A stretch of 64,000 nucleotides of DNA, taken from contig JAQWSU010000021.1 in assembly GCA_029243025.1 (NCBI GenBank), positions 62,001 through 126,000 on the forward strand, given 5' to 3'. The notes beneath the pieces were generated by a model. That model was given only the letters and a program-made list of their open reading frames with translations, made no database searches and was not told where the DNA came from. The DNA is from Pirellulaceae bacterium (GTDB taxonomy: Bacteria > Planctomycetota > Planctomycetia > Pirellulales > Pirellulaceae). Shown here piece after piece: positions 3,098 through 19,625 of the stretch; the first letter of the stretch is position 1, and every line of letters begins with the position of its first letter. Both the position numbers and the translations under genes were made by a program.

Positions 3098-3813
3098 ACT
3101 GTCGCTGCCGAATTCTGTTTCTTTTCGCCCTGATCCTCACGGTGCCCAGCATCGGGTCCGCGGCGGAATCGGACGTCGAAGCCGGTTTTGTCTCAATCTT
3201 CGACGGCAAGACTCTTGACGGTTGGACAGTGATGCCGGCAAAGGCTGTAAAGGCTTGGCAAGTTGAAAAGGGTGCCATTGTTGGCAATGGTGACAAGGGT
3301 CGAAGTTATTTAGTTTACGACAAGCACGACATTGCTGATTTTGAACTCAAGCTCAGTTATCGCTTTCCAGGGAAAGGAAATAGTGGGGTGAGTATTCGCG
3401 CCCGTGAAGATGAAACCGGAAAGCGCGGCTTTCAGAGTTACCACGCCGATTTTGGTCATGTGGGAATTGGTCGACAGGTTCTCGGTGCATGGGATTTTCA
3501 TACGCCAGGTCGCACCGAGCACGCTTGCTTTCGAGGCGATCGGCTGGTGATTGATGAAAATGACCAACCCGCGATCACAAAAATTGATGGAGCCGTGACT
3601 TTAGACGATATTCATCGTGGTGGGTGGAATGATGTTCGAGTCGTTGCTCAGGGCAACCAATTCCGTTTTTATATCAATGGCAAGCTGTCATCGGAGTTTA
3701 TCGAACATTTGGAGGCGAAACGCCGCCTACATAAGGGGATGATTCAGCTTCAATTGCACGACCCTGGGATGATTGTGGAGTTTAAGAATCTGCAGCTCAA
3801 AATTCTCAAATGA
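3094..3813 (+). CDS. Secreted DUF1080 (3-keto-disaccharide hydrolase-like) protein
   Basis: 239 residues. A clear Sec signal peptide (MNCRCRILFLFALILTVPS, cleavage near GSAA) is followed by a single DUF1080 concanavalin-like fold starting 'FVSIFDGKTLDGW'. The conserved 'GNSGVSIRARED' and 'GWNDVRVVAQGNQFRFYINGKL' blocks are present. The family is greatly expanded in planctomycetes and is assigned to glycan binding or hydrolysis of 3-keto sugars. The start codon overlaps the stop of the upstream propeller/cytochrome gene (ATGA), which implies an operon and a shared role in extracytoplasmic carbohydrate oxidation. That role is inferred from context. A second DUF1080 gene lies at 57592-58281. Confidence 0.88.
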   Translation: MNCRCRILFLFALILTVPSIGSAAESDVEAGFVSIFDGKTLDGWTVMPAKAVKAWQVEKGAIVGNGDKGRSYLVYDKHDIADFELKLSYRFPGKGNSGVSIRAREDETGKRGFQSYHADFGHVGIGRQVLGAWDFHTPGRTEHACFRGDRLVIDENDQPAITKIDGAVTLDDIHRGGWNDVRVVAQGNQFRFYINGKLSSEFIEHLEAKRRLHKGMIQLQLHDPGMIVEFKNLQLKILK

Positions 3814-4018
3814 AACGTAAGTGAAAGAGAGTCTGTCGAGAATCGGCTGTCTTTCGGGCGTAAAATGCCGCAGAGTTGTCTGTAACTCATTTTGGCTGAG
3901 TTGATTGCGGGAAATCGTGCAGGCAAGTTGATGATTGCATCCGCTTGAACTGCGTAAGACAATGGGAAACGTCGTTTTTTGAACTGGGCAAGTGGAAGGT
4001 TCAAAAGAGAACATTGAC

Positions 4019-5335: not shown

Positions 5336-5980
5336 CTCAGGCTCGACGATTGTGAGCGGAATGTTCGGATGTCCAAGAACGAACCGAGTTTGGCAAAGGG
5401 CTGGATGAAAGCACGGATCCTTTTTCGCTGCCGGTGAATTTCTCCAGAAACGCCGCCAGGCGATGGGAACCGGTGTCCCAAGGCACGGAGCGAGTTGGCC
5501 GGATGCGTGATGATGGCTGACTGGAGCTTCCGCTGACTGAGGCGACAAACGGATTCCTTCTCTGCGCTTTTTAGATTTGCTTTGGTTCTTTCTTGCGCCT
5601 CAGGGGGGCGAGGTTCAAAATGAGAAGCAATGCGAGTCGCTAAGGTAACCGCCGTTCCGATTCTTAAACGGTTGTTGAATTTTTGAAGGCATGCTTATCG
5701 GCTTCACGTTTCAGCCCTTTCTTGGCTTAAAAGCGTCTTCTTCACAAGCTTCCAAGAATTTCTGTGAGCAAGCACGGAGGTGCGGTTGCATTATAGGATT
5801 TGTCGATTAGGTTAGGGAAACTGACAGATCTAAATGCTTTGGTTGTACCGACCGTAGCCTTCCTTGTGGCGTTCGATCCACTTGGCTGCGATGAACTCGC
5901 TGGTAGTGAGTTTGGCGGAATTTAGTTACGCAACCTTGATCGTTATTGTTTTGCCACGTTTTTTTCGAGCGGGGACGAAA
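5336..5980. other. Spacer with no supported gene
   Basis: About 645 bp between the DUF1501 stop and the chosen start of the PEP-CTERM gene. Open frames on either strand here lack family features and Shine-Dalgarno support. I see no strong hairpin terminator or tRNA. The last 117 bp are an in-frame extension of the next gene that I regard as untranslated leader. Confidence 0.5.
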
Positions 5981-8236
5981 ATGAAAGTTTGGAATTTTAA
6001 GTATCTTGTTGCGGGGCTGATGTTAGCCCTCTGTTGTACATCGGTGAAAGCCGATGTCTTTGACCTTGATTTCGAAACCGATCCGGAAGACATGGGCATC
6101 GAATTTTTCGGCACATCGGAGTGGCGTGAAGATGATGGGTTTGATGACACCGGATATTTGAGCATTACCGATGCTCTGAATGGCCAACGTGGTGCTATTG
6201 TTTTCCCCGACTTGGCAAATGGGGAATCTCTGAAGGCTTTCAGTATCGAAGCTGACTTGCGTGTGGGTGGTGGTACGAGTCGACCTGCGGATGGTTTCAG
6301 TTTCAATTTTGCTCGTCCTGGTGACCCTGTCTTAGACGACGGTGAAGGTTGGGCTTCGAGCCCCACCAACGAAGGTAATCTTCCTGAAGAGGGAACAACC
6401 ACAGGTTTGGCCATCGGCTTTGATGAATGGTTCAGCGGTGGTTCCGACGTTGTTGGCATGAGCATTCGACTCGACAACGATCTCGTCGATCAATACGAAT
6501 TTCCTTTGTTGAACGGCGAAGTTGACGACCAAGATTCGTTGCAAACGGGCCCTGAAGGGGTTTTCGACGACGAATTACAGGACATGATGGATTGGGCTCA
6601 TCTTTCGATCGAGCTTTGTGCAAACAACCTGAGTGTTAAATACAAAGACGTCGAAGTGTTCGACCAAGTGGTTGAATACGATCCAACACCTGGTTTGCTT
6701 GTTTTCGGTGGTCGAACGGGTGGAGCAAACGCTTATCACCATATCGACAATATCCAGGTCAAGACCGGAACGGATGTTGGCGAAGGTTGTGTCATTATTC
6801 CTCCGTCGTACGTCGCAGGCGAAAATGTGATTGGTACGCGAACTTTCGATGCCACCGTGTCGAACCAAGTGTTTGGCCCTGAGCAGCCTGGTGTTTCCGG
6901 ACACTCCGGCCGTATTGTGACCGACACGGGACTAACGATCGACAGCATGACAGTCGCTGAAGAAATTCTCGAAGACGAAGAAGGCGATGTCGGATCTTAC
7001 CCGGTTGTTGACATGGCAGGTGGCGGCGGAACGTTCCCCGTGAATCTCCCTTACCCGAACGGTGTCGCCGGTACCGGTCAAGAAGATTTTGCGGTTGAGA
7101 CCGTCGCGGAAGTAGTGATTCCCGCCGGCACATGGACGGTTGGATTCGGTTCTGATGACGGTGGTGCACTCACGATTCCTGGTGTTGAGTTCACTGTGAC
7201 TTCTGACACCAACGATAGCTTTGACGATGACCAGATTCGCTTCGAAGGAACTCGTGGTCATGGTTGGACCGTTGGTACTTTCACCTTGGACGAACCGCTA
7301 GAAACAGCGATCATCGGACAATTCTTCGAGCGAGGTGGCGGCGACAGTTTTGAAATCGCTGTCATCGAAGGCGAAGTGATTGAGGATGCTAGTCCTGACA
7401 ATGGTTGGGAATTGCTTGGTGACGGTACGCTCGATTGGTCTGTGAAGCACACGGGTGTGCCTCTCGTCAGTGCCGACTTGAATGCTTCAGTCGTCGCAGA
7501 GCGTCCGTTGGAATTTGATGTCAATGGAGACTCCGGATCGGCTGATCAATTGGCGATCGAGAATCCTGACTCAGAAGTTTATACGACGATCTTGGATGTG
7601 GATGGTGTGACCTTCCAGATCAAGGGCGTTGGATCGTTCAGCACGGGTGAAAGCTTCAGCATCGTTGATGCGGATCAGATCACGGGAACGCCTATCTTGT
7701 CCTCGCTTGATCCTTCCCAGACTTGGGCATTTGATGCTGAGAATGGTTTGCTTTGTTACGAAGTTTGTGCCGGTACTTTGGTCGGCGATTACAACGGTAA
7801 TGGCCTGCTTGACGCTGAAGACCTGGACTTGAACGCTGCTGTTGGTATCCCAAGCCAGGACTTGGCTTACGACCTCAACAACGATGGTTTGGTCAATACG
7901 GCTGATCGCAAGATCTGGGTGAACGACCTGAAGAACACCTGGATGGGTGATGCTGACTTGAACGGCGTCTTCGACAGTGGTGACTTGGTAACCGTCTTCG
8001 CAGCAGCGAAGTACGAAACAGGCCAAGCTGCAAGCTGGGGACAAGGCGACTGGAATGGCGACCAAAAGTTCGATTCTGGTGACTTGGTCGAAGCTTTCAG
8101 CAACGCTGGTTACAATGCGGGTCAGCGACCTGGTGGTCCTAATCCGGCAACAGCTGCTGTGCCTGAACCCTCCAGCCTCGTATTGGCGATGTTGAGCCTC
8201 TTCGGCTTGGTTGGATTCGCTCGTCGACGTAAGTAA
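5981..8236 (+). CDS. Secreted lectin/PA14-like protein with dockerin-like repeats and PEP-CTERM tail
   Basis: 751 residues from ATG 5981, which places the signal peptide (MKVWNFKYLVAGLMLALCC) at the N-terminus; an in-frame ATG at 5864 would bury it. Residues ~25-260 resemble a bacterial L-type lectin/concanavalin domain ('FSIEADLRVGGGTSRPADGF'). The next ~150 include a PA14-like stretch ('GFGSDDGGALTIPG'). The C-terminal ~170 carry several dockerin-like calcium loops (DYNGNGLLDAEDLD, DLNNDGLVNTADR, DADLNGVFDSGDL, DWNGDQKFDSGDL). It ends in a PEP-CTERM sorting signal: VPEPSS, a hydrophobic helix, then RRRK. This predicts a surface or exopolysaccharide-associated protein processed by an exosortase. 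The same C-terminal module recurs in the gene at 18366-19625. A strong terminator follows. Confidence 0.88.
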   Translation: MKVWNFKYLVAGLMLALCCTSVKADVFDLDFETDPEDMGIEFFGTSEWREDDGFDDTGYLSITDALNGQRGAIVFPDLANGESLKAFSIEADLRVGGGTSRPADGFSFNFARPGDPVLDDGEGWASSPTNEGNLPEEGTTTGLAIGFDEWFSGGSDVVGMSIRLDNDLVDQYEFPLLNGEVDDQDSLQTGPEGVFDDELQDMMDWAHLSIELCANNLSVKYKDVEVFDQVVEYDPTPGLLVFGGRTGGANAYHHIDNIQVKTGTDVGEGCVIIPPSYVAGENVIGTRTFDATVSNQVFGPEQPGVSGHSGRIVTDTGLTIDSMTVAEEILEDEEGDVGSYPVVDMAGGGGTFPVNLPYPNGVAGTGQEDFAVETVAEVVIPAGTWTVGFGSDDGGALTIPGVEFTVTSDTNDSFDDDQIRFEGTRGHGWTVGTFTLDEPLETAIIGQFFERGGGDSFEIAVIEGEVIEDASPDNGWELLGDGTLDWSVKHTGVPLVSADLNASVVAERPLEFDVNGDSGSADQLAIENPDSEVYTTILDVDGVTFQIKGVGSFSTGESFSIVDADQITGTPILSSLDPSQTWAFDAENGLLCYEVCAGTLVGDYNGNGLLDAEDLDLNAAVGIPSQDLAYDLNNDGLVNTADRKIWVNDLKNTWMGDADLNGVFDSGDLVTVFAAAKYETGQAASWGQGDWNGDQKFDSGDLVEAFSNAGYNAGQRPGGPNPATAAVPEPSSLVLAMLSLFGLVGFARRRK

Positions 8237-10363: not shown

Positions 10364-11329
10364 GTGAGCCCTACCTCAAATCGCCGGTCGGTTGACGGAT
10401 TCACACTTGTTGAACTTTTAGTTGTAATTGCAATTATCGGACTATTGGTGGCCATTTTGCTACCGGCCGTGAATGCTGCCAGATCAGCAGCCCGTCGCAC
10501 GCAATGTATCAACAACACAAAACAGATTTGTCTGGCCATTGTCGCGTTTGAATCGGCACGTGGTCACTTACCCCAGCGTCCTTTCTTCAACAATAGGGCG
10601 ATCTATCTTCAAGACGGCGAAATGAATGGCAAGAAAACAACTTCGACTCAGTTACTACCGTACATCGAAGGCACCACAGGCGTTGCGATTCGTCGTGACT
10701 CTGGCCTTTCCGGATCGAGTGTGCTTAGCGAACCCAGTTTCGCCTGCCCCTCCGACGTCGAGCAGATAATTACCGTATCGGCACGAGGAAAGACGTTTGC
10801 CGAACAGAAAGGGAATTACGGATTCAACTGGGGGTTTGCCGACTTTCGCAGGCCCGACAAAAATACACAGGGACCTTTCGCAGCCTATGCGGGGAAAACA
10901 ACGTCCAAGATAAAATTCCAACACATCAGCGACGGGGCGAGCAAGACAATGGCCATAATTGAAATGCGAAAGGCTCCATTTCGATCGACTCAACCTACCC
11001 GACTCGTAGACGTACGTGGACGGATTTGGCGAAGCAAGGCGATTGGTGCCTACCACGTGTCTACGCGACAGACGCCCAACTCCGTCGAACCTGATCGAAT
11101 TGTCCTTTGTTTGGATCGCCCCGACATCGGAATGCCGTGCGACAGGGTGCGGCTAAGAGCAGTTGGACAGGACTCCTACGTGACCGCGCGGAGTGCGCAT
11201 GCAGGACTTGTCAACGTAGGAATGTGTGACGGATCAGTCCGTTCAATTCCCGATGAGATTGATGTGGCTGTGTGGCGCGCGATGTCGACAATGCGTGGCG
11301 GCGAAATTGGCACTCAATCCGATTTGTAA
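10364..11329 (+). CDS. DUF1559 pseudopilin-like protein
   Basis: 321 residues from GTG 10364, chosen because AGGAGG lies 9 bp upstream (10349-10354); an upstream frame extension has no such signal. The N-terminus carries a type IV pilin/type II secretion prepilin motif, '[20 protein letters not shown]', after a short charged leader. The C-terminus has the H-X9-DG signature ([12 protein letters not shown]) that defines DUF1559. The family is massively expanded in planctomycetes. Proteins are cleaved by a prepilin peptidase and are presumed to form or sit on pseudopilus-like structures, but the role is unproven. An ECF sigma gene follows 84 bp downstream. Confidence 0.92.
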
Positions 11330-11413
11330 TTGGTCAACGATCCAAAGTCACACTTCCCAGATTTCGTACGATAGAAGATAGTAGCAACAAGTTTCAATCA
11401 CAGAGGTTATCAA

Positions 11414-11956
11414 TTGCGCGAAAAACGAGATCGTTGCGAAATCTTGTTTGAGACGCTCGTGCGTGAGAACGAACGTGCGGTGACAGCGTATTTGCGGACG
11501 ATGGTCCGCGACCCGGGGCTGGTCGACGACCTTTTTCAAGAAACGCTGATTACGGCTTGGAACAAGTTCGGCGAGTTCGATCCGACTCAGCCATTGGGCC
11601 CGTGGCTACGAGGAATTGCCTTCAACTTGGTGCGCAATGCGGCTCGTTCGAGGCGCCGCGACTGCCTAGTATTTGGTCCGACGGCTGAGGAAGCGATCGA
11701 GTCAATCTTTAGGAAATTCGACGGTATCAACGAAGCGTGGGAGGAGCAGGTTAGTGCAATTCGCGGCTGCGTCAATGAGTTGCCAGAGCGGTCTCGCAGG
11801 ATCGTGGAATTGCGATATGAGCGAAACTCGAACGCGGCACAAATCGCTCAGTGCGAGTCAAGTTCACCGGCGGCGATACGCAAACAGTTGCAGCGGATAC
11901 GACAACTGTTGGCCGAATGCATACAGCGAAAGACGGAGCGTTCGGCACCCGCTTGA
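11414..11956 (+). CDS. ECF-type RNA polymerase sigma factor
   Basis: 180 residues. The start is a TTG at 11414 with GAGG 8 bp upstream. Region 2 reads 'NERAVTAYLRTMVRDPGLVDDLFQETLITAW', with the conserved D-D-x-x-Q-E-T core. Region 4 reads 'LPERSRRIVELRYERNSNAAQIA' followed by a recognition helix 'SSSPAAIRKQLQRIRQLL'. The sequence fits the Rhodopirellula/Verrucomicrobium sigma-70 family (TIGR02989 type). It is followed 65 bp later by a membrane protein with a cytoplasmic N-terminus, the usual position for an anti-sigma partner. The regulon is unknown; the downstream monooxygenase and redoxin genes are candidates by proximity only. Confidence 0.92.
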   Translation: MREKRDRCEILFETLVRENERAVTAYLRTMVRDPGLVDDLFQETLITAWNKFGEFDPTQPLGPWLRGIAFNLVRNAARSRRRDCLVFGPTAEEAIESIFRKFDGINEAWEEQVSAIRGCVNELPERSRRIVELRYERNSNAAQIAQCESSSPAAIRKQLQRIRQLLAECIQRKTERSAPA

Positions 11957-12021
11957 GCATTCGATGAAGACGTTTCGATAAATCACAATACGCTTGCGTG
12001 CAAAGTTATGTAAGGGTGAAT

Positions 12022-13095
12022 ATGAGCGACGACCAAGATAACAATCGCCGGACGAACTCAATCGACGAGTGGCTTGACGGAGACGACGACGGACAGGCAA
12101 GCCGGGCCGATTCTGTTGAGGCAGCACTCACCAGCTCGGAACTCGAACAGCTGCTAATGCATAGCATGCTCGCCGGACAATTTGAGCCTGAAGAAGATCG
12201 TCAGCGGCGCGTGGAATCGACATTGCATGCGCGTGATCGTGCCCACTCTACCGGGCCGCGCATTGACGGTTCCGATTCATCAGCGGGCGGTCTTGATGAC
12301 GAATCGAAGACGAATGGGGTGCGAGAGACCGGGCATGTCGGTGTGGATCGCAGTCAATTGGCCCCTGTTGCCAAGCCTTCACCAACGGATAGAACTCGCT
12401 TTCGGTGGGTGTCGGCCGTCATGGTAACTGCTGCCTCAATCGCCGTTTTCGCTGTGGTCAGTTTTTTATTGGCGACGCCCAAAAGTGCTCATGCCGCAAT
12501 GGAACAAGTGATCGCTGCGCTGCGACTTCCGATAACCCGCGTTTATGACGTGCAAGTTACGACGACTTTCGCCGGACGTGAACGAGAACTAGGCGGCACG
12601 CTTTATACGCGCTCAACTGATCAATTCGTGGCGACGTTTCCGGACACTCAGCTCTATCCGACGACGATCGGCTCCGATGGCACGAATCGCTGGTGGATTC
12701 GTGGCAAAAAAAAATGGAGTTCGAGCGACAGTTGGCAACATGCGGTAAACCGGCGGGAAGCCGTAATTGACCGTCTTACGACGCTGCAATTGCAAATGAA
12801 TGTGTTCCTCACGGAGTTACCACAGCAATACGAGCTGCGGCTTTTGGCGGAAGAACCGCTGCCGGGTGACCCAGCGGTCATGTGCCGTCCGATTGAGGCC
12901 ACGCGATCGGAAAACGACATCAACCTACCGCAGACGGTGCGGATTTGGGCTCATCCGGAAACGGGCGTTGTCGTGCGGATGCACTTGTTGCGGGAAAAGT
13001 TCAGTCCCGTTGCCGAGAGCCGAGTCGAATTGAATTTGCGCGAAGTCACCGAGGTGCCGGACACGTTTTTTATGGCCGACCATCACGAGCCATAG
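12022..13095 (+). CDS. Single-pass membrane protein with LolA/MucB-like domain, probable anti-sigma partner
   Basis: 357 residues from ATG 12022, with AAGGGTG just upstream; a GTG at 11998 is in frame but less well placed. Residues ~1-130 are acidic, Ser/Asp-rich and presumably cytoplasmic. A transmembrane helix lies at about 134-158 ('VMVTAASIAVFAVVSFLLAT'). The rest is a periplasmic beta-rich domain resembling the LolA/LolB/MucB fold ('VYDVQVTTTFAGRERELGGTLY', 'TDQFVATFPD', 'GVVVRMHLLREKFSP'). No zinc-binding H-x3-C-x2-C anti-sigma motif is seen. Position directly after the ECF gene suggests a sigma-regulating sensor, which is inference. The gene ends just before a spacer rich in inverted repeats. 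Confidence 0.75.
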   Translation: MSDDQDNNRRTNSIDEWLDGDDDGQASRADSVEAALTSSELEQLLMHSMLAGQFEPEEDRQRRVESTLHARDRAHSTGPRIDGSDSSAGGLDDESKTNGVRETGHVGVDRSQLAPVAKPSPTDRTRFRWVSAVMVTAASIAVFAVVSFLLATPKSAHAAMEQVIAALRLPITRVYDVQVTTTFAGRERELGGTLYTRSTDQFVATFPDTQLYPTTIGSDGTNRWWIRGKKKWSSSDSWQHAVNRREAVIDRLTTLQLQMNVFLTELPQQYELRLLAEEPLPGDPAVMCRPIEATRSENDINLPQTVRIWAHPETGVVVRMHLLREKFSPVAESRVELNLREVTEVPDTFFMADHHEP

Positions 13096-13124
13096 AGTGG
13101 CGAATTCTTTCTCGCCAAATTATC

Positions 13125-13147
13125 AAATCAGCCGCGCGTTAGCGTCC
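13125..13147. repeat. REP-like palindromic fragment (copy 2)
   Basis: AAATCAGCCGCGCGTTAGCG matches the left half of the palindrome at 10194-10229, apart from a 2-bp gap and one change. It follows a short hairpin TGGCGA/TCGCCA at 13098-13117 after the membrane-protein stop. Confidence 0.5.
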
Positions 13148-13280
13148 AGTTTATCTCATCCAAGAACCGGACTCTAGCAAGTGGTGGCTGATGTATCGGA
13201 CAGCCAATACTCGAACATCCGATTTCGTCTTCCAGCCAATTGATTCACTTGGGAGTCACACTCGTCTGCAATCGGACAAA

Positions 13281-13415
13281 TACTAGTAGTGTGGCACAGC
13301 CAAATTTTTTGGTAGCTGGATTCGCAAGAATTCAGTTGGATCGACAAAACTGAACTTTGCGAGTCCAGCGACAAAGTGCCGAACCCGAGAATAGTGTCGT
13401 GACTGACTACTAGTA
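13281..13415. mobile_element. MITE-like non-coding inverted-repeat element
   Basis: A 135-bp segment bounded by perfect 10-bp terminal inverted repeats, TACTAGTAGT (13281-13290) and ACTACTAGTA (13406-13415). Inside is a long hairpin: GCTGGATTCGCAAGAATTCAGTT (13315-13337, arm 1) pairs with 13348-13369 (arm 2, AACTGAACTTTGCGAGTCCAGC) with only a few mismatches and a ~10-nt loop. No protein is encoded. It lies 46 bp upstream of the monooxygenase gene and may influence its expression. No second copy is visible in this window. Confidence 0.65.
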
Positions 13416-13460
13416 GAGGGCGGCAGCTAGCCGTTTCGGAACGCAATCCATAGTAAGGAA

Positions 13461-15077
13461 ATGACCATGTTACGATTCACCAAGTCAGTTTTTGGAGCAG
13501 TGCTGTTTGTCAGCGCTGTCGGAACCGCACAAGGGCAACAACAAGTTACCTTCTCCGATCACATTGCGAAGATCATCTACGCGAAGTGCAGTTCATGCCA
13601 TCGTCCGGGACAAGCGGGGCCATTCGATTTGTTAACGTACGATGACATAGCGGAACGAGCTGATACGATCAAAGCGGTTGTCGATGACGGGTATATGCCA
13701 CCGTGGAAAAACATGACCGACGACGTCTCGTTTCAACATGACCGGCGGCTTACGAGAGACGAGTTTCAGCTGATCCAACGCTGGGTCGCAGCCGGCGCCC
13801 CACAAGGCAACCCGCGAACCGCGCCGCCGCTGCCTAAGTTTCCCACTGAGTGGCAACTCGGTCGGCCCGATGTGGTAGTCGAAATGAACGGTAGCTTTGA
13901 CGTTCCCGCGAGTGGTCCCGACGTCTATCGCTCGTTTGTCTTTCAGCTTGATTTGCCCGAACACAAATGGGTGAAGGCGGTCGAGGTTAAGTCGCAAGCA
14001 AAATCTGCGTTGCATCACGCGCTCTTCTTTGTGGATGCAGCCAAGTCGTCGCGATCCGAAGACGGCAAAGACGGCAAGCCGGGGATGTCAGGAATGGGCT
14101 TTCTTGGACGGGCCGCGATGGCATCCGCCAACGCCCGGAACAAGGACGCGTCAATTCAGCCGTCGATTTCACTGGGCGGATACGTACCGGGAACGACGCC
14201 CATGCTACTGCCCGGAGACAATGCCATGCTGCTTCCCAAGGGATCGGACATTGTGATGCAGGTACACTTCCATCCAACTGGCAAACACGAAACCGAACAC
14301 GCCAAACTGGCGTTGTACTTGGCTGATCGACCGCCGTCACGACAACTGACCACGATTAAGATTCCACCGCTGTTTGGACGGTTCTCCAACATCGACATTC
14401 CTGCTGGCAAGACAGACTATGCGCTGATCGATTCGTTTACCTTGCCGGTCGATGTGAATGCAATTCGCGCGTCGGGGCACGCTCATTATCTCGGCAAGGA
14501 AATGTGCATGACCGCAAGACTGCCAAGTGGCAAGATGCTTGACCTGTTGCAGATTCACGAATGGGACTTGGACTGGCAGGACATGTATCAGTTCTCAAGT
14601 CCTGTCGCACTGCCTGCGGGAACTGTCATCCATGGAAAGGTCCTTTACGACAACTCGAAAGCGAATCCGTCGAACCCAAGCAATCCGCCAAAACGAGTGG
14701 CATGGGGCCGCGAGTCATTCGACGAGATGGGTAGTGTTAGTCTACAAGTCGTCGCCAAAAACGCGAGCGATCAGGCTCGGCTCAACGAGGCCGTTCGCGG
14801 GAAAATGCGTCGTGCATTCGTGACTGCCGCGCGCAATGGTCAACTTGGAGGAGGCAACCGCGAAAGTGGACCGGCACAATCGATCGCCGATGACCGTCTG
14901 GACGCGAATCGTGATGGTCGTATTCAACGTTCAGAATTAGCGGGGCAGTTCCCTCGCGGCGAACAGATCTTCAATCGCCTCGATGAAAACAAAGACGGCG
15001 TGCTGGATAAAGTCGAACTGGAAGCAGCTCGCGGCAGGATGAACCGATTGCGTAACTTCCGAGGAGGTCGGCGATGA
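13461..15077 (+). CDS. Cytochrome c / PHM-like copper monooxygenase fusion with C-terminal EF-hands
   Basis: 538 residues with a Sec signal peptide (cleavage near QGQQ). A haem-binding CSSCH is at residues 43-47. Residues ~135-435 resemble the copper type II ascorbate-dependent monooxygenase (PHM/DBM) fold. All six expected copper ligands can be matched: H185-H186 (ALHHAL) and H269 (QVHFH) for one site, and H340 and H342 (GHAHYLGKEM) plus M423 (FDEMG) for the other. Two EF-hand loops (DANRDGRIQRSE, LDENKDGVLDKVE) lie at about 481-520. The fusion suggests an extracytoplasmic copper oxygenase with a built-in electron-transfer haem and calcium-binding tail; the substrate is unknown. ATG 13467 is an alternative start. 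It overlaps the redoxin gene by 4 bp (ATGA). Confidence 0.85.
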   Translation: MTMLRFTKSVFGAVLFVSAVGTAQGQQQVTFSDHIAKIIYAKCSSCHRPGQAGPFDLLTYDDIAERADTIKAVVDDGYMPPWKNMTDDVSFQHDRRLTRDEFQLIQRWVAAGAPQGNPRTAPPLPKFPTEWQLGRPDVVVEMNGSFDVPASGPDVYRSFVFQLDLPEHKWVKAVEVKSQAKSALHHALFFVDAAKSSRSEDGKDGKPGMSGMGFLGRAAMASANARNKDASIQPSISLGGYVPGTTPMLLPGDNAMLLPKGSDIVMQVHFHPTGKHETEHAKLALYLADRPPSRQLTTIKIPPLFGRFSNIDIPAGKTDYALIDSFTLPVDVNAIRASGHAHYLGKEMCMTARLPSGKMLDLLQIHEWDLDWQDMYQFSSPVALPAGTVIHGKVLYDNSKANPSNPSNPPKRVAWGRESFDEMGSVSLQVVAKNASDQARLNEAVRGKMRRAFVTAARNGQLGGGNRESGPAQSIADDRLDANRDGRIQRSELAGQFPRGEQIFNRLDENKDGVLDKVELEAARGRMNRLRNFRGGRR

Positions 15078-15715
15078 TTAAGCCCGTTTTCCGTTCGCTG
15101 TCGTATTGCCTCCTGATGGTTGGTTTCGTTGGCTGCGTCGAGCAGGACAGCGAGTTAACGTTAAGTGCGTCAGGACGCAGCGAGGTACGCGACTCTGATG
15201 AGCGAGCCGAAAAGTGGACCGATATTGACGGTAACGCGCACCAACTATTTGCACCCGGCGCGGATCGACTTTGCGTCTTGGTCTTCGTCACCACAGATTG
15301 TCCGGTCGCCAACGCATACCAGCCAACGCTGCGCGAGATCGTCAAAGAGTTTGCCGAGGCGGATGTCGACTTCTACCAAATCAACCCAACGAAGTCGGCG
15401 ACGATTGGGAAAGCAAAACAACACGTAGCGGACTTCGAAATCGCTTCGCCGATGATCCTCGATCCGAACCAAACGATTGCACGGCGTGTTGGCGCAGAGG
15501 TAACACCCGAATCGTTTTTAATCTCGCCGCAGGAAGAAATCTTGTATCGGGGCCGCATCGATGACTTGTACGTCGGCTTCGGCAAGAGGAGGCAATCGCC
15601 AACGTCACACGACTTGCGAGACGCAATCACCACGGCGCTCGCAGCCAAGCCGATTTCGATATCCGTGACGAAACCCACCGGTTGCCTCATTCAATATGAC
15701 GAAGGATCACTCTAA
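15074..15715 (+). CDS. Thioredoxin-like (redoxin) lipoprotein
   Basis: 213 residues. The leader 'SYCLLMVGFVGC' is a lipobox-type signal with the lipidated Cys at 21. The AhpC/TSA-redoxin fold is recognisable from 'LCVLVFVTTDCPVANAYQPTL', with a single active-site Cys at 76 and no CxxC, followed by 'IASPMILDPNQTIARRVGAEVTPESFLI' and 'LYRGRIDD'. Such single-cysteine redoxins often sit next to cytochrome/PHM-like genes. The ATGA overlap with the upstream gene shows translational coupling. The likely role is thiol or peroxide redox chemistry on the outer face of the membrane supporting the monooxygenase, which is inferred. Confidence 0.85.
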   Translation: MIKPVFRSLSYCLLMVGFVGCVEQDSELTLSASGRSEVRDSDERAEKWTDIDGNAHQLFAPGADRLCVLVFVTTDCPVANAYQPTLREIVKEFAEADVDFYQINPTKSATIGKAKQHVADFEIASPMILDPNQTIARRVGAEVTPESFLISPQEEILYRGRIDDLYVGFGKRRQSPTSHDLRDAITTALAAKPISISVTKPTGCLIQYDEGSL

Positions 15716-15721
15716 TTACCC

Positions 15722-15759
15722 AACAGAAGTACAATCGAGGTTGATCAGCCGCATCGTCG
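15722..15759 (+). repeat. 38-bp direct repeat, left copy
   Basis: Begins AACAGAAGTACAATCGAGG and ends GCATCGTCG. It matches 17217-17254 at 36 of 38 positions. It starts 6 bp after the redoxin stop codon. The two copies bracket a ~1.5-kb block. Confidence 0.8.
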
Positions 15760-15828
15760 CGAACTTACGATTCCGCCAGGTGATTGTTGGACTTTACAAA
15801 ACGGCAATGTTTCAGCTGTTCTTCGTGG

Positions 15829-16181
15829 ATGCTCAATCTCGTCACCCGTATATTCCTACTGAGTGTGTTGGGGTGCTTGGTCTCCAGTTTGTTGGTCTCC
15901 AGTTTGTTGGTCGTTGTTCGCATGTGCCAACGTGACGATAGGCTACTCATCGCAAAGGTTTTTTCTTCTTCCTGGCCTGTCCGGTTGCGTTCTGGGCGGT
16001 CGGAGGCATTTTCGGGCTGACGATCGCGATTTGCATTTGGGCAACTGTGGCCAGTGTCGTAATTGCGTTCTCGCTACTCTATCTCAGGGGCTGGATGGAT
16101 CGACTTGGCAAAGTATTGTGGATCTGGACCGCCTGCATCGATGTTGCGGCGAGGAGTGGCCTTCTCCTGAATTCGAAGTAG
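15829..16181 (+). pseudogene. Small membrane protein gene split by a frameshift in a T-run
   Basis: Frame 1 from ATG 15829 reads 'MLNLVTRIFLLSVLGCLVSS' and continues to 'DRLLIAKV' at 15952-15960. At the six-T run 15959-15964, the reading resumes in another frame as 'FFFFLACPVAFWAVGGIFGL' and continues hydrophobically ('ICIWATVASVVIAFSLLYL') to a TAG at 16179-16181. One additional T would join the two into a protein of about 117 residues with three hydrophobic segments. A 15-bp tandem duplication (15879-15908) encodes the repeated 'LVSSLLVSSLLV'. It is either a pseudogene or a slippage-decoded gene, or there is an error in the run. The family is not recognised. Confidence 0.5.
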
Positions 16182-17908: not shown

Positions 17909-18365
17909 AGCCACCCTTTTGACAAGGGCCGCAATCCTCCGAGCCTACTCAGTCTCTCGGCCCACGTCAATTGCATCCTTGAACACGTGTGAGTCGGAAG
18001 CGTCTGTAGACGCCGAAGAACGGGTAAGTTGACCGGATAGATGCCAAAGCGTCAAGTCCGACTCTTGATGCTGCACGCCAGCTTTCACAAAGGACAAAGC
18101 GTTGGTTTACGGACAGCACCTCCCTCGATGAGAAGAGGGCGGAGAGGGCCGGTATCGAGGAATCAAAGAGCAAAAGTCGACAAAATAGCTGCATAATCGC
18201 TCTCGGCACTGGAGAGGGGAATCAGACATTCGTTCGGAACAGTTGCCCCACGCTTTTTTGTTGATTGGCCTGCTGGTTTGGTATACGTTCGATGCCGTGC
18301 TGAACGTTTTTTTTGCTGCACTTTCACTGAGACGGTGTGGTTTTCTGTATGTCGAGGAGATAACG
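17909..18365. other. Spacer with no supported gene
   Basis: Holds the promoter region of the minus-strand tRNA and the leader of the next plus-strand gene. The in-frame extension from 18243 (hydrophobic, Phe/Leu-rich) is not supported by a ribosome-binding site. No repeats or strong hairpins noticed. Confidence 0.45.
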
Positions 18366-19625
18366 ATGCGCTCCATCCGAAAAGTTCAACTGGATCGTCT
18401 GGTTTTTGTGCAAACTGTCCTTTGCTGCGTTTTTTGCACAAGTTGGACTTTTCTTGCGAATGGGGCAATTACGGATGGTTTAGTCGCTTATTATCCGTTC
18501 GACGATGGTGCCGGTTTGACGCTCACCGAGGTCACGGGACTGTCGTCAGATGGGGAACTGTATGAATTTCCCGATGACGATTCGCAGTGGGTTGCCGGGC
18601 AGATTGGTGGGGCTCTTGAGTATGACGGGATCGATGATTTTGTGATTGCTGCCGAACATCCCCTAGCTGAGACGGCGTTGTCGGTCTCAATTTGGGGATA
18701 TGCAAACGAAGCTCCCACCTGGGCTTCGCTTGTCAAAAACTGGGGGCAAGGATCCGTAGGGCAGTTTCATTTTGGGCTCGGGGTTGGAGATGCGGATACG
18801 CTCAACATCTTCATTACCACGGAGTCGGGTGCCGCCAATGTGGGTACCGATGTGGATGACATTGAATTTGAAGAATGGCAGCACTTTGCTTTTGTCGTCG
18901 ACCCAATCGAAGAAACGGTGTTTCTCTATCGCAATGGTGAAGTCGTTGATGATCAACTCTATGATGGGACTGAATTCACGGATGCACCCAATAGTGAAGC
19001 ACTTGGAATTGGTGTGAAGACCAACAACTTCGGCGATGCGGCTGATCCGGGAGGATGTTGTCCTGGGTATTGGGACGGTCGGCTAGATGATCTTGGGATT
19101 TGGCATCGAGCTCTCACCAGTGAGGAAGTCTCCAAGATTTATCAAGACGGCTTGTTGGGAAAGCCGTTGTTGCCGGGCGCTGGAATCCGTGGTGATTTTA
19201 ATGGCGATGGTCAATTGGATGCGATGGATATCGATTTGCTGAGTGCAGAGGTTCGATTCGGTAACAATCCTGCGAGCTTTGATTTAACAGCTGACGGACG
19301 GGTCGACTCGAAAGATCGGATCGAGTGGGTTGAGGTTGTTGCGAATACCTATTTTGGTGACTCAAATCTTGACGGAGAGTTCAACAGCTCGGATTTTGTT
19401 GCTGTATTTGCAGCAGGTGAATACGAAGATAACGTCGACGATAATTCAAGCTGGTCGACGGGAGACTGGAATGGTGACACCGAATTTGATAGCTCGGATT
19501 TTGTCACCGCATTTACCGCCGGCGGGTATGAAGTGGGAGCTCGTGTTTTCGCTGTTCCAGAACCGAGTAGCCTTATTATCTTACTGATTGGACTGGTCGG
19601 TCTGGCGTGTCGATTGCGCCGATAA
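18366..19625 (+). CDS. LamG-domain protein with dockerin-like repeats and PEP-CTERM tail
   Basis: 419 residues from ATG 18366, preceded by AGGAG at 18355-18359. A signal peptide ('LVFVQTVLCCVFCTSWTFLA') is followed by a LamG/concanavalin domain ('GLVAYYPFDDGAGLTLTEVT', 'DGIDDFVIAAEHPL', 'DGRLDDLGIWHRAL'). The C-terminal ~130 residues have dockerin-like calcium loops (DFNGDGQLDAMDID, DLTADGRVDSKDR, DSNLDGEFNSSDF, DWNGDTEFDSSDF). The tail is PEP-CTERM: VPEPSS, a hydrophobic helix, then RLRR. The order and wording of the C-terminal module match the protein at 5981-8236, so the two are likely paralogous surface proteins sorted by the same exosortase system. Confidence 0.88.
   Translation: MRSIRKVQLDRLVFVQTVLCCVFCTSWTFLANGAITDGLVAYYPFDDGAGLTLTEVTGLSSDGELYEFPDDDSQWVAGQIGGALEYDGIDDFVIAAEHPLAETALSVSIWGYANEAPTWASLVKNWGQGSVGQFHFGLGVGDADTLNIFITTESGAANVGTDVDDIEFEEWQHFAFVVDPIEETVFLYRNGEVVDDQLYDGTEFTDAPNSEALGIGVKTNNFGDAADPGGCCPGYWDGRLDDLGIWHRALTSEEVSKIYQDGLLGKPLLPGAGIRGDFNGDGQLDAMDIDLLSAEVRFGNNPASFDLTADGRVDSKDRIEWVEVVANTYFGDSNLDGEFNSSDFVAVFAAGEYEDNVDDNSSWSTGDWNGDTEFDSSDFVTAFTAGGYEVGARVFAVPEPSSLIILLIGLVGLACRLRR

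Follow-up and report, generated by a model that had tools for sequence, protein, structure and literature searches.

What is a protein that resembles the copper enzyme PHM doing in a planctomycete, joined to a cytochrome-like domain and encoded directly beside a redoxin? The question is raised by a locus of a Pirellulaceae bacterium (assembly GCA_029243025.1, contig JAQWSU010000021.1), of which positions 62,001-126,000 of the forward strand, 64,000 nt in all and referred to here as the window, were analyzed. Copper enzymes with the fold of PHM (peptidylglycine alpha-hydroxylating monooxygenase) are best known as animal proteins; ascorbate feeds them there, and they include the enzymes that complete peptide hormones. 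The two genes at 13461-15715 of the window are, we consider fairly probable, a planctomycete module of three parts in its unfused version, which would combine a dicopper monooxygenase, a cytochrome c feeding it with electrons and a two-cysteine redoxin, under the control of an extracytoplasmic function (ECF) sigma factor. The two genes and the heme and copper residues of the larger product are listed below; each of these residues is invariant in a family alignment of 30 members (30/30), and the copper ligands are aligned with those of PHM.

13461-15077, + strand: predicted exported cytochrome c-PHM-fold protein with EF-hand tail, 538 aa (open reading frame (ORF) list; family and fold comparison)
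15074-15715, + strand: AhpC/TSA-type redoxin, 213 aa, probable lipoprotein (ORF list; AhpC-TSA model over its cut-off)
13587-13601, + strand: c-type heme site C43-S-S-C46-H47 (Cytochrome_CBB3, 26 versus 27 bits)
13695-13697, + strand: M79 of an MPP motif, candidate second heme ligand
14013-14018, + strand: H185 and H186, two predicted CuH ligands (PHM H107 and H108; aligned to the HH of PHM)
14265-14267, + strand: H269, predicted third CuH ligand (PHM H172)
14478-14486, + strand: H340-A-H342, two predicted CuM ligands (PHM H242 and H244)
14727-14729, + strand: M423 of a DEM motif, predicted third CuM ligand (PHM M314)

The alignment comprises the window protein and 29 relatives from its own genome and from related genomes, and all six copper ligands, together with C43, C46, H47 and M79, are unchanged throughout. 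The rows of a second alignment had been chosen by the heme motif, MPP, HH and DEM, and it therefore does not count as evidence for these motifs. A glutamine two residues before H269, the position of PHM Q170, is kept in 26/30 members. Searched alone against Pfam and NCBIfam, the window protein does not reveal its copper domain: Pfam returns the EF-hands and a cytochrome match just short of the cut-off (Cytochrome_CBB3, 26 against 27 bits), and phmmer against the PDB returns EF-hand proteins only. When six relatives were scanned with the Pfam model Cu2_monoox_C (PF03712), two exceeded the cut-off, two fell below it and two gave no match. The profile built from the 30 aligned members finds rat PHM in the PDB at E 2.6e-9, and its alignment sets the HH, QVH, H-T-H and DEM of PHM opposite the family's own motifs.

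The predicted fold points the same way. With a model of the 538-aa protein built from 44 sequences, Foldseek retrieved both PHM (1phm) and DBH at E 1.3e-11, and a second structural search gave PHM at Z 20.2 over 267 residues (root-mean-square deviation 2.9). The first 26 rows of that search are all PHM or DBH, with Z from 17.4 to 20.2, and PNGase F comes next at 8.6; membership of the PNGase F family was dropped on these scores. With a profile E value of 2.6e-9 and a fold Z of 20.2, the resemblance to PHM is more than chance. A preliminary description made from the letters of this DNA had named the CSSCH heme site, the six PHM-type copper ligands, a PHM-like fold, two EF-hand loops and a 4-bp overlap between the 538-aa and redoxin ORFs; all five were borne out, the fold on a predicted model. 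Alignment and model together support the prediction that the 538-aa product combines a dicopper core of the PHM fold, a c-type heme domain and an EF-hand tail; its N-terminal ~25 aa, judged by eye, would be a signal peptide.

Compared with rat PHM (1phm/1sdw), the window protein has the double jelly-roll fold of two domains over residues 134-452 and the same aligned three-His CuH and two-His-plus-Met CuM sites, invariant in the family, whereas the c-type heme domain, the EF-hand tail and the redoxin partner are additions. PHM contains disulfides, and these cannot exist in the window protein because its whole chain holds three cysteines, two of them within CxxCH. In PHM, R240, N316 and Y318 bind the peptide carboxylate. 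The equivalents of R240 and N316 are not conserved in the family, as the corresponding columns hold R in 0/30 and N in 0/30 members, and the Y318 column holds Y in 5/30. The protein would follow the plan of PHM, and its substrate is probably not peptidylglycine, because the R240 and N316 equivalents are never R or N in the 30 members. Judged by fold (Foldseek E 1.3e-11, Z 18.0), the copper core of dopamine beta-hydroxylase (DBH, 4zel) is the same, but there a DOMON domain precedes it, whereas a c-type cytochrome occupies that place in the window protein. The copper core belongs to a known fold family, the copper type II monooxygenases (PHM/DBH/MOXD); the heme domain, the redoxin and the EF-hand tail are what is new.

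The constant company of a redoxin was assessed in 121 loci, made up of the window and sets of 20, 60 and 40 regions around matches, chosen non-randomly from listed matches and holding 126 PHM genes. A redoxin is fused ahead of the heme domain in 94/126 of these genes; in others the redoxin has its own gene, immediately upstream (10/126) or immediately downstream (4/126: the window, L041, L052 and L208), so that 108/126 have a redoxin fused or adjoining. The window's own genome carries six full-length PHM family genes, and the five other than the window's are all redoxin-fused. As judged from sequence, redoxin, cytochrome c and PHM make up a real unit, of which the window carries the unfused version. 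A domain that is joined to the heme-PHM chain in most members and encoded next to it in others points to a joint function, and there is good evidence that the redoxin is functionally tied to the heme-PHM protein.

The 213-aa protein itself matches the AhpC-TSA model of Pfam at 46.6 bits (cut-off 26). It had been described as a single-Cys redoxin lipoprotein beside the PHM gene; the redoxin identity and the company stand, but the single cysteine does not. The chain has cysteines at C12, C21, C67, C76 and C204, and two of them, C76 (15299-15301, in T-x-C-P) and C204 (15683-15685, in G-C), are each retained in 78/79 family redoxins, which makes the single-Cys label wrong. C21, read by eye as the lipobox cysteine, probably makes the redoxin a lipoprotein. 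The redoxin family profile finds 2ywi first in the PDB (E 1.1e-23), followed by 3u5r and 2cvb, with E values down to 3.6e-20, all uncharacterised redoxins. C-P and the C-terminal G-C are both retained in the alignment to 2ywi; 2ywi, 3u5r and 2cvb are stand-alone proteins, whereas the domain of the window family is fused to or beside a heme-copper protein in those 108 genes.

The redoxin might instead be a dedicated maturation factor and not a partner in turnover. As a ResA/CcmG- or TlpA-like protein it would reduce the CxxCH cysteines ahead of heme attachment or prepare the copper sites, acting in cis in the fused members. Among the PDB matches of its profile are indeed ResA (E 3.3e-9 and weaker), StoA and further thiol-disulfide reductases of the exported kind, it has two conserved cysteines, and a CxxCH domain nearly always accompanies it. 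On the other hand, its best structural matches are the uncharacterised redoxins named above, its active-site motif is C-P-x-A/S without the CxxC pair of ResA-type proteins, and maturation factors usually serve many clients and can do without a fusion. We regard this alternative as a serious one, if rather doubtful.

A working scheme for the module of monooxygenase, cytochrome and redoxin can be outlined. An exported PHM-fold dicopper monooxygenase and a His/Met c-type heme domain would share one chain, loaded with copper and heme, and in the window the redoxin would be a separate, probably membrane-anchored lipoprotein. O2 and a substrate, probably not peptidylglycine, would bind between CuH (H185, H186, H269) and CuM (H340, H342, M423), with the substrate bridging the two coppers and O2 activated at CuM. 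In animal PHM, whose two coppers lie 11 A from each other, ascorbate delivers one electron to each of them (PMC6123673). In the planctomycete protein the heme (H47, M79) may feed CuH one electron at a time and so replace the ascorbate of animal PHM. The thiols of C76 and C204 would keep the module working, either in maturation, where they would reduce cysteines or copper, or in turnover, where they would clear the peroxide formed by uncoupling. The ECF sigma factor and the membrane anti-sigma-like protein encoded upstream probably switch the genes on.

A further alternative is that the PHM-fold domain hydroxylates nothing and serves in copper storage, sensing or electron transfer; it would then be a redox sensor or oxidase under copper regulation, and the heme domain would be its outlet. 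The family has no known activity, the peptide-binding residues of PHM are not kept, and some relatives by fold, such as PNGase F and DUF2961, do not act as oxygenases (PMC8812541). However, neither copper site lacks a ligand or varies, and the glutamine before H269 is kept in most members, a pattern that copper binding alone would not require, and this explanation appears unlikely.

Control of the module is suggested by two genes upstream on the same strand: the ECF gene is followed by the gene for a 365-aa protein, then by a 365-nt gap and the PHM gene.

11414-11956, + strand: ECF sigma factor, Rhodopirellula/Verrucomicrobium type (TIGR02989 over its cut-off; ECF genes adjoin PHM in other genera)
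11998-13095, + strand: one-pass membrane protein, 365 aa, candidate anti-sigma factor (homologues near ECF/PHM elsewhere)

The ECF assignment, already made in the preliminary description, was confirmed by a TIGR02989 score of 148.5 bits against a curated cut-off of 124.55; the gene is one of 28 matches to this model in its own genome. The order of ECF gene, anti-sigma-like gene and PHM gene is not unique to this genome, as it recurs in line and on one strand in three other genera (L049, L053 and L057, with an extra ORF in L057) and, with the ECF and anti-sigma-like genes divergent from PHM, in a fourth (L042). Identity between the anti-sigma-like proteins of these loci and that of the window is 19 to 24%. 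With the window excluded, an ECF gene lies within 2.5 kb upstream, on either strand, in 9/113 PHM genes against 1.7 expected (Poisson P 8e-5), from a background of 6 ECF genes in 986 kb of the rest of the loci. A single-sequence search with the 365-aa protein matched 10/60 genomes, its own included; among the matches listed, those known to adjoin a PHM gene are in its own genome and in one other (G019). At best, the sequence data indicate an ECF link that is real for a subset of the PHM genes.

The 365-aa protein had been labeled LolA/MucB-like, a label that is unproven. The protein gives a weak anti-sigma match (E 0.018) and no Pfam match, and a five-member profile found nothing in the PDB. 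Against NCBIfam, 2/5 members gave weak anti-sigma matches and 1/5 a LolA match, all far below cut-off, and a single-sequence fold model of the periplasmic part reached a predicted local distance difference test (pLDDT) score of 38 and was unusable. Its position points to a candidate anti-sigma factor. In another locus (L153, 5132-10752, one strand) an ECF gene is followed by two small ORFs and two tandem fused redoxin-cytochrome c-PHM genes; one small ORF has a weak Metal_resist match (20.2 against a cut-off of 29.2 bits), and metal-linked regulation is conceivable there.

Several observations weigh against the proposed module and its control. The fold model is of middling confidence (pLDDT 69, predicted template modeling score 0.65), with values below pLDDT 50 in the heme-motif stretches 43-57 and 78-94 and in the loop 416-420 beside M423, and no Pfam copper-monooxygenase model (PF01082 or PF03712) matches the window protein alone at E 0.1. 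No redoxin was found for 18/126 PHM genes, 7 of which lie at most 700 nt from a contig end. With the window included, an ECF gene within 2.5 kb upstream occurs in 10/114 PHM genes with enough flank, a minority trait; the ECF background consists of 6 genes only; and an ECF gene lies downstream in 4/110 genes, which leaves the upstream versus downstream comparison without significance (P 0.14). The count for upstream ECF genes on the same strand is 4/113 against 0.86 expected (P 0.012). L208, the closest relative with an intact upstream flank and the same EF-hand and downstream-redoxin layout, has no ECF gene within 2.5 kb. In the window, 365 nt separate the PHM gene from the ECF pair, with which it may or may not be co-transcribed, and across 11300-15900 neither promoter-like sites (3 versus 2.3 in shuffles) nor terminator-like sites (8 versus 5.9) are in excess.

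The tail of the 538-aa protein carries two loops with matches to Pfam EF-hand models.

14901-14936, + strand: EF-hand loop 1, residues 481-492 (EF-hand_5, 29.7 versus 25.9 bits)
14982-15017, + strand: EF-hand loop 2, residues 508-519 (EF-hand_6, 28.3 versus 25 bits)

Both models exceed their cut-offs, and the tail may bind calcium. In a tree made by a quick method, the window protein falls into a supported set of seven with L041, L042, L208, L209, L211 and L215 (SH-aLRT 98). EF-hand-like loops are present in 6/7 of this set, while L042 is fused to a redoxin and lacks the loops; an EF-hand tail and a redoxin gene downstream are combined in L041 and L208 as they are in the window. EF-hand-like tails occur outside the set too. 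In one congener (G001) the best match to the window protein is 40% identical, and the three loci sampled from it fall outside the set. Long C-terminal extensions, TPR-like by eye, were seen in L018, L023, L025, L029 and L031.

The preliminary description had also drawn a wider circle, in which a LEPR-XLL protein, a pseudopilin, the ECF factor, its LolA-like partner, PHM and redoxin might form one secreted, calcium-responsive oxidation module. The genes do neighbor each other on the same strand, and EF-hands occur in the PHM protein as well as in the LEPR-XLL protein. The pseudopilin (PF07596 and PF07963 over cut-off) and the LEPR-XLL EF-hand protein (a Planc_extracel signal of 22.3 bits, below the cut-off of 25.5) are both present upstream. 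However, gene gaps and strand by themselves weigh little, and 20 neighbor loci of PHM genes gave a single pseudopilin match, at a distance of about 7 kb from PHM, and 0 LEPR-XLL matches, against many for the redoxin and ECF queries. The redoxin stands as a part of the module and the ECF pair does so at best in a minority of loci, while the pseudopilin and LEPR-XLL genes were dropped; the larger system appears very improbable. Least credible of all, a strict peptidylglycine hydroxylase making hydroxyglycine peptides has in its favor that PHM is the closest solved relative and that the Q170 position is mostly kept, but it was dropped on the R240 and N316 columns, empty of R and N, with Y at the Y318 position in so few members.

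No substrate clue emerged from a scan of ten proteins adjoining PHM genes in related loci. Elsewhere in the window, a LamG-like, dockerin and PEP-CTERM protein is encoded at 18243-19625, and the product of 5864-8236 ends, by eye, in a PEP-CTERM-like tail. Across 9-18 kb of the window there is no step in GC (guanine-cytosine) content.

The family is widespread among the relatives of the source organism: 57/60 genomes, its own included, match at E 0.001, and some of these matches are partial. Across the phylum, 57/119 genomes match; among the matches listed, about 40 by eye cover nearly the whole profile and the rest mostly the heme domain only. A scan of genome contigs with the window protein gave one distant locus, from Opitutaceae (L011, 26% identity), and the plasmid collection gave no match to this protein.

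Viral collections add observations of their own. Four IMG/VR contigs (L066, 2523-5176; L075, 2288-5164; L096, 2625-5176; L127, 2677-5173) carry two adjoining CxxCH and PHM-type genes of ~410-465 aa without a fused redoxin. Beside these pairs lie phage-type genes: a tail lysozyme-like gene, thymidylate synthase, dATP/dGTP pyrophosphohydrolase, an ultraviolet (UV)-endonuclease-like gene and an esterase. By motif pattern, 75 viral-contig loci have two heme-PHM ORFs in 32 cases, one in 19 and none in 24. INPHARED phages gave no match for one PHM protein of L127, and PHROG gave none for either protein of that contig. The tandem genes are possibly phage-borne heme-copper oxygenase genes. Between the two genes of L075, a separate small cytochrome c gene (3562-3930; Cytochrom_C 32.1 against a cut-off of 21.3 bits) gives a hint of where the pair may obtain its electrons. 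In one viral-collection contig (L061), a fused redoxin-cytochrome c-PHM gene of planctomycete type (1104-2993) lies near a head protease/major head gene; it could mark a prophage border or be a cargo gene.

Our search of the open-access literature found no bacterial cytochrome c-PHM or redoxin-cytochrome c-PHM protein recognized as such; subscription journals and preprints lay outside its scope, and absence is unproven. As a tentative proposal, held with somewhat less than even confidence, these proteins may form a class of their own among bacterial dicopper monooxygenases, independent of ascorbate and driven by a built-in cytochrome c, with a dedicated two-Cys redoxin, fused or adjoining, in its service; its members would have multiplied in planctomycetes, came partly under their own ECF/anti-sigma pairs and were taken up by phages as tandem heme-PHM genes. 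If this is true, the planctomycete family would be a natural, protein-fed version of PHM chemistry and would bear on the origin of eukaryotic PHM-fold enzymes. Whether a heme can replace ascorbate at CuH becomes a testable question, and a likely class of function emerges for proteins that one genome can encode several times over, with six full-length genes in this bacterium.

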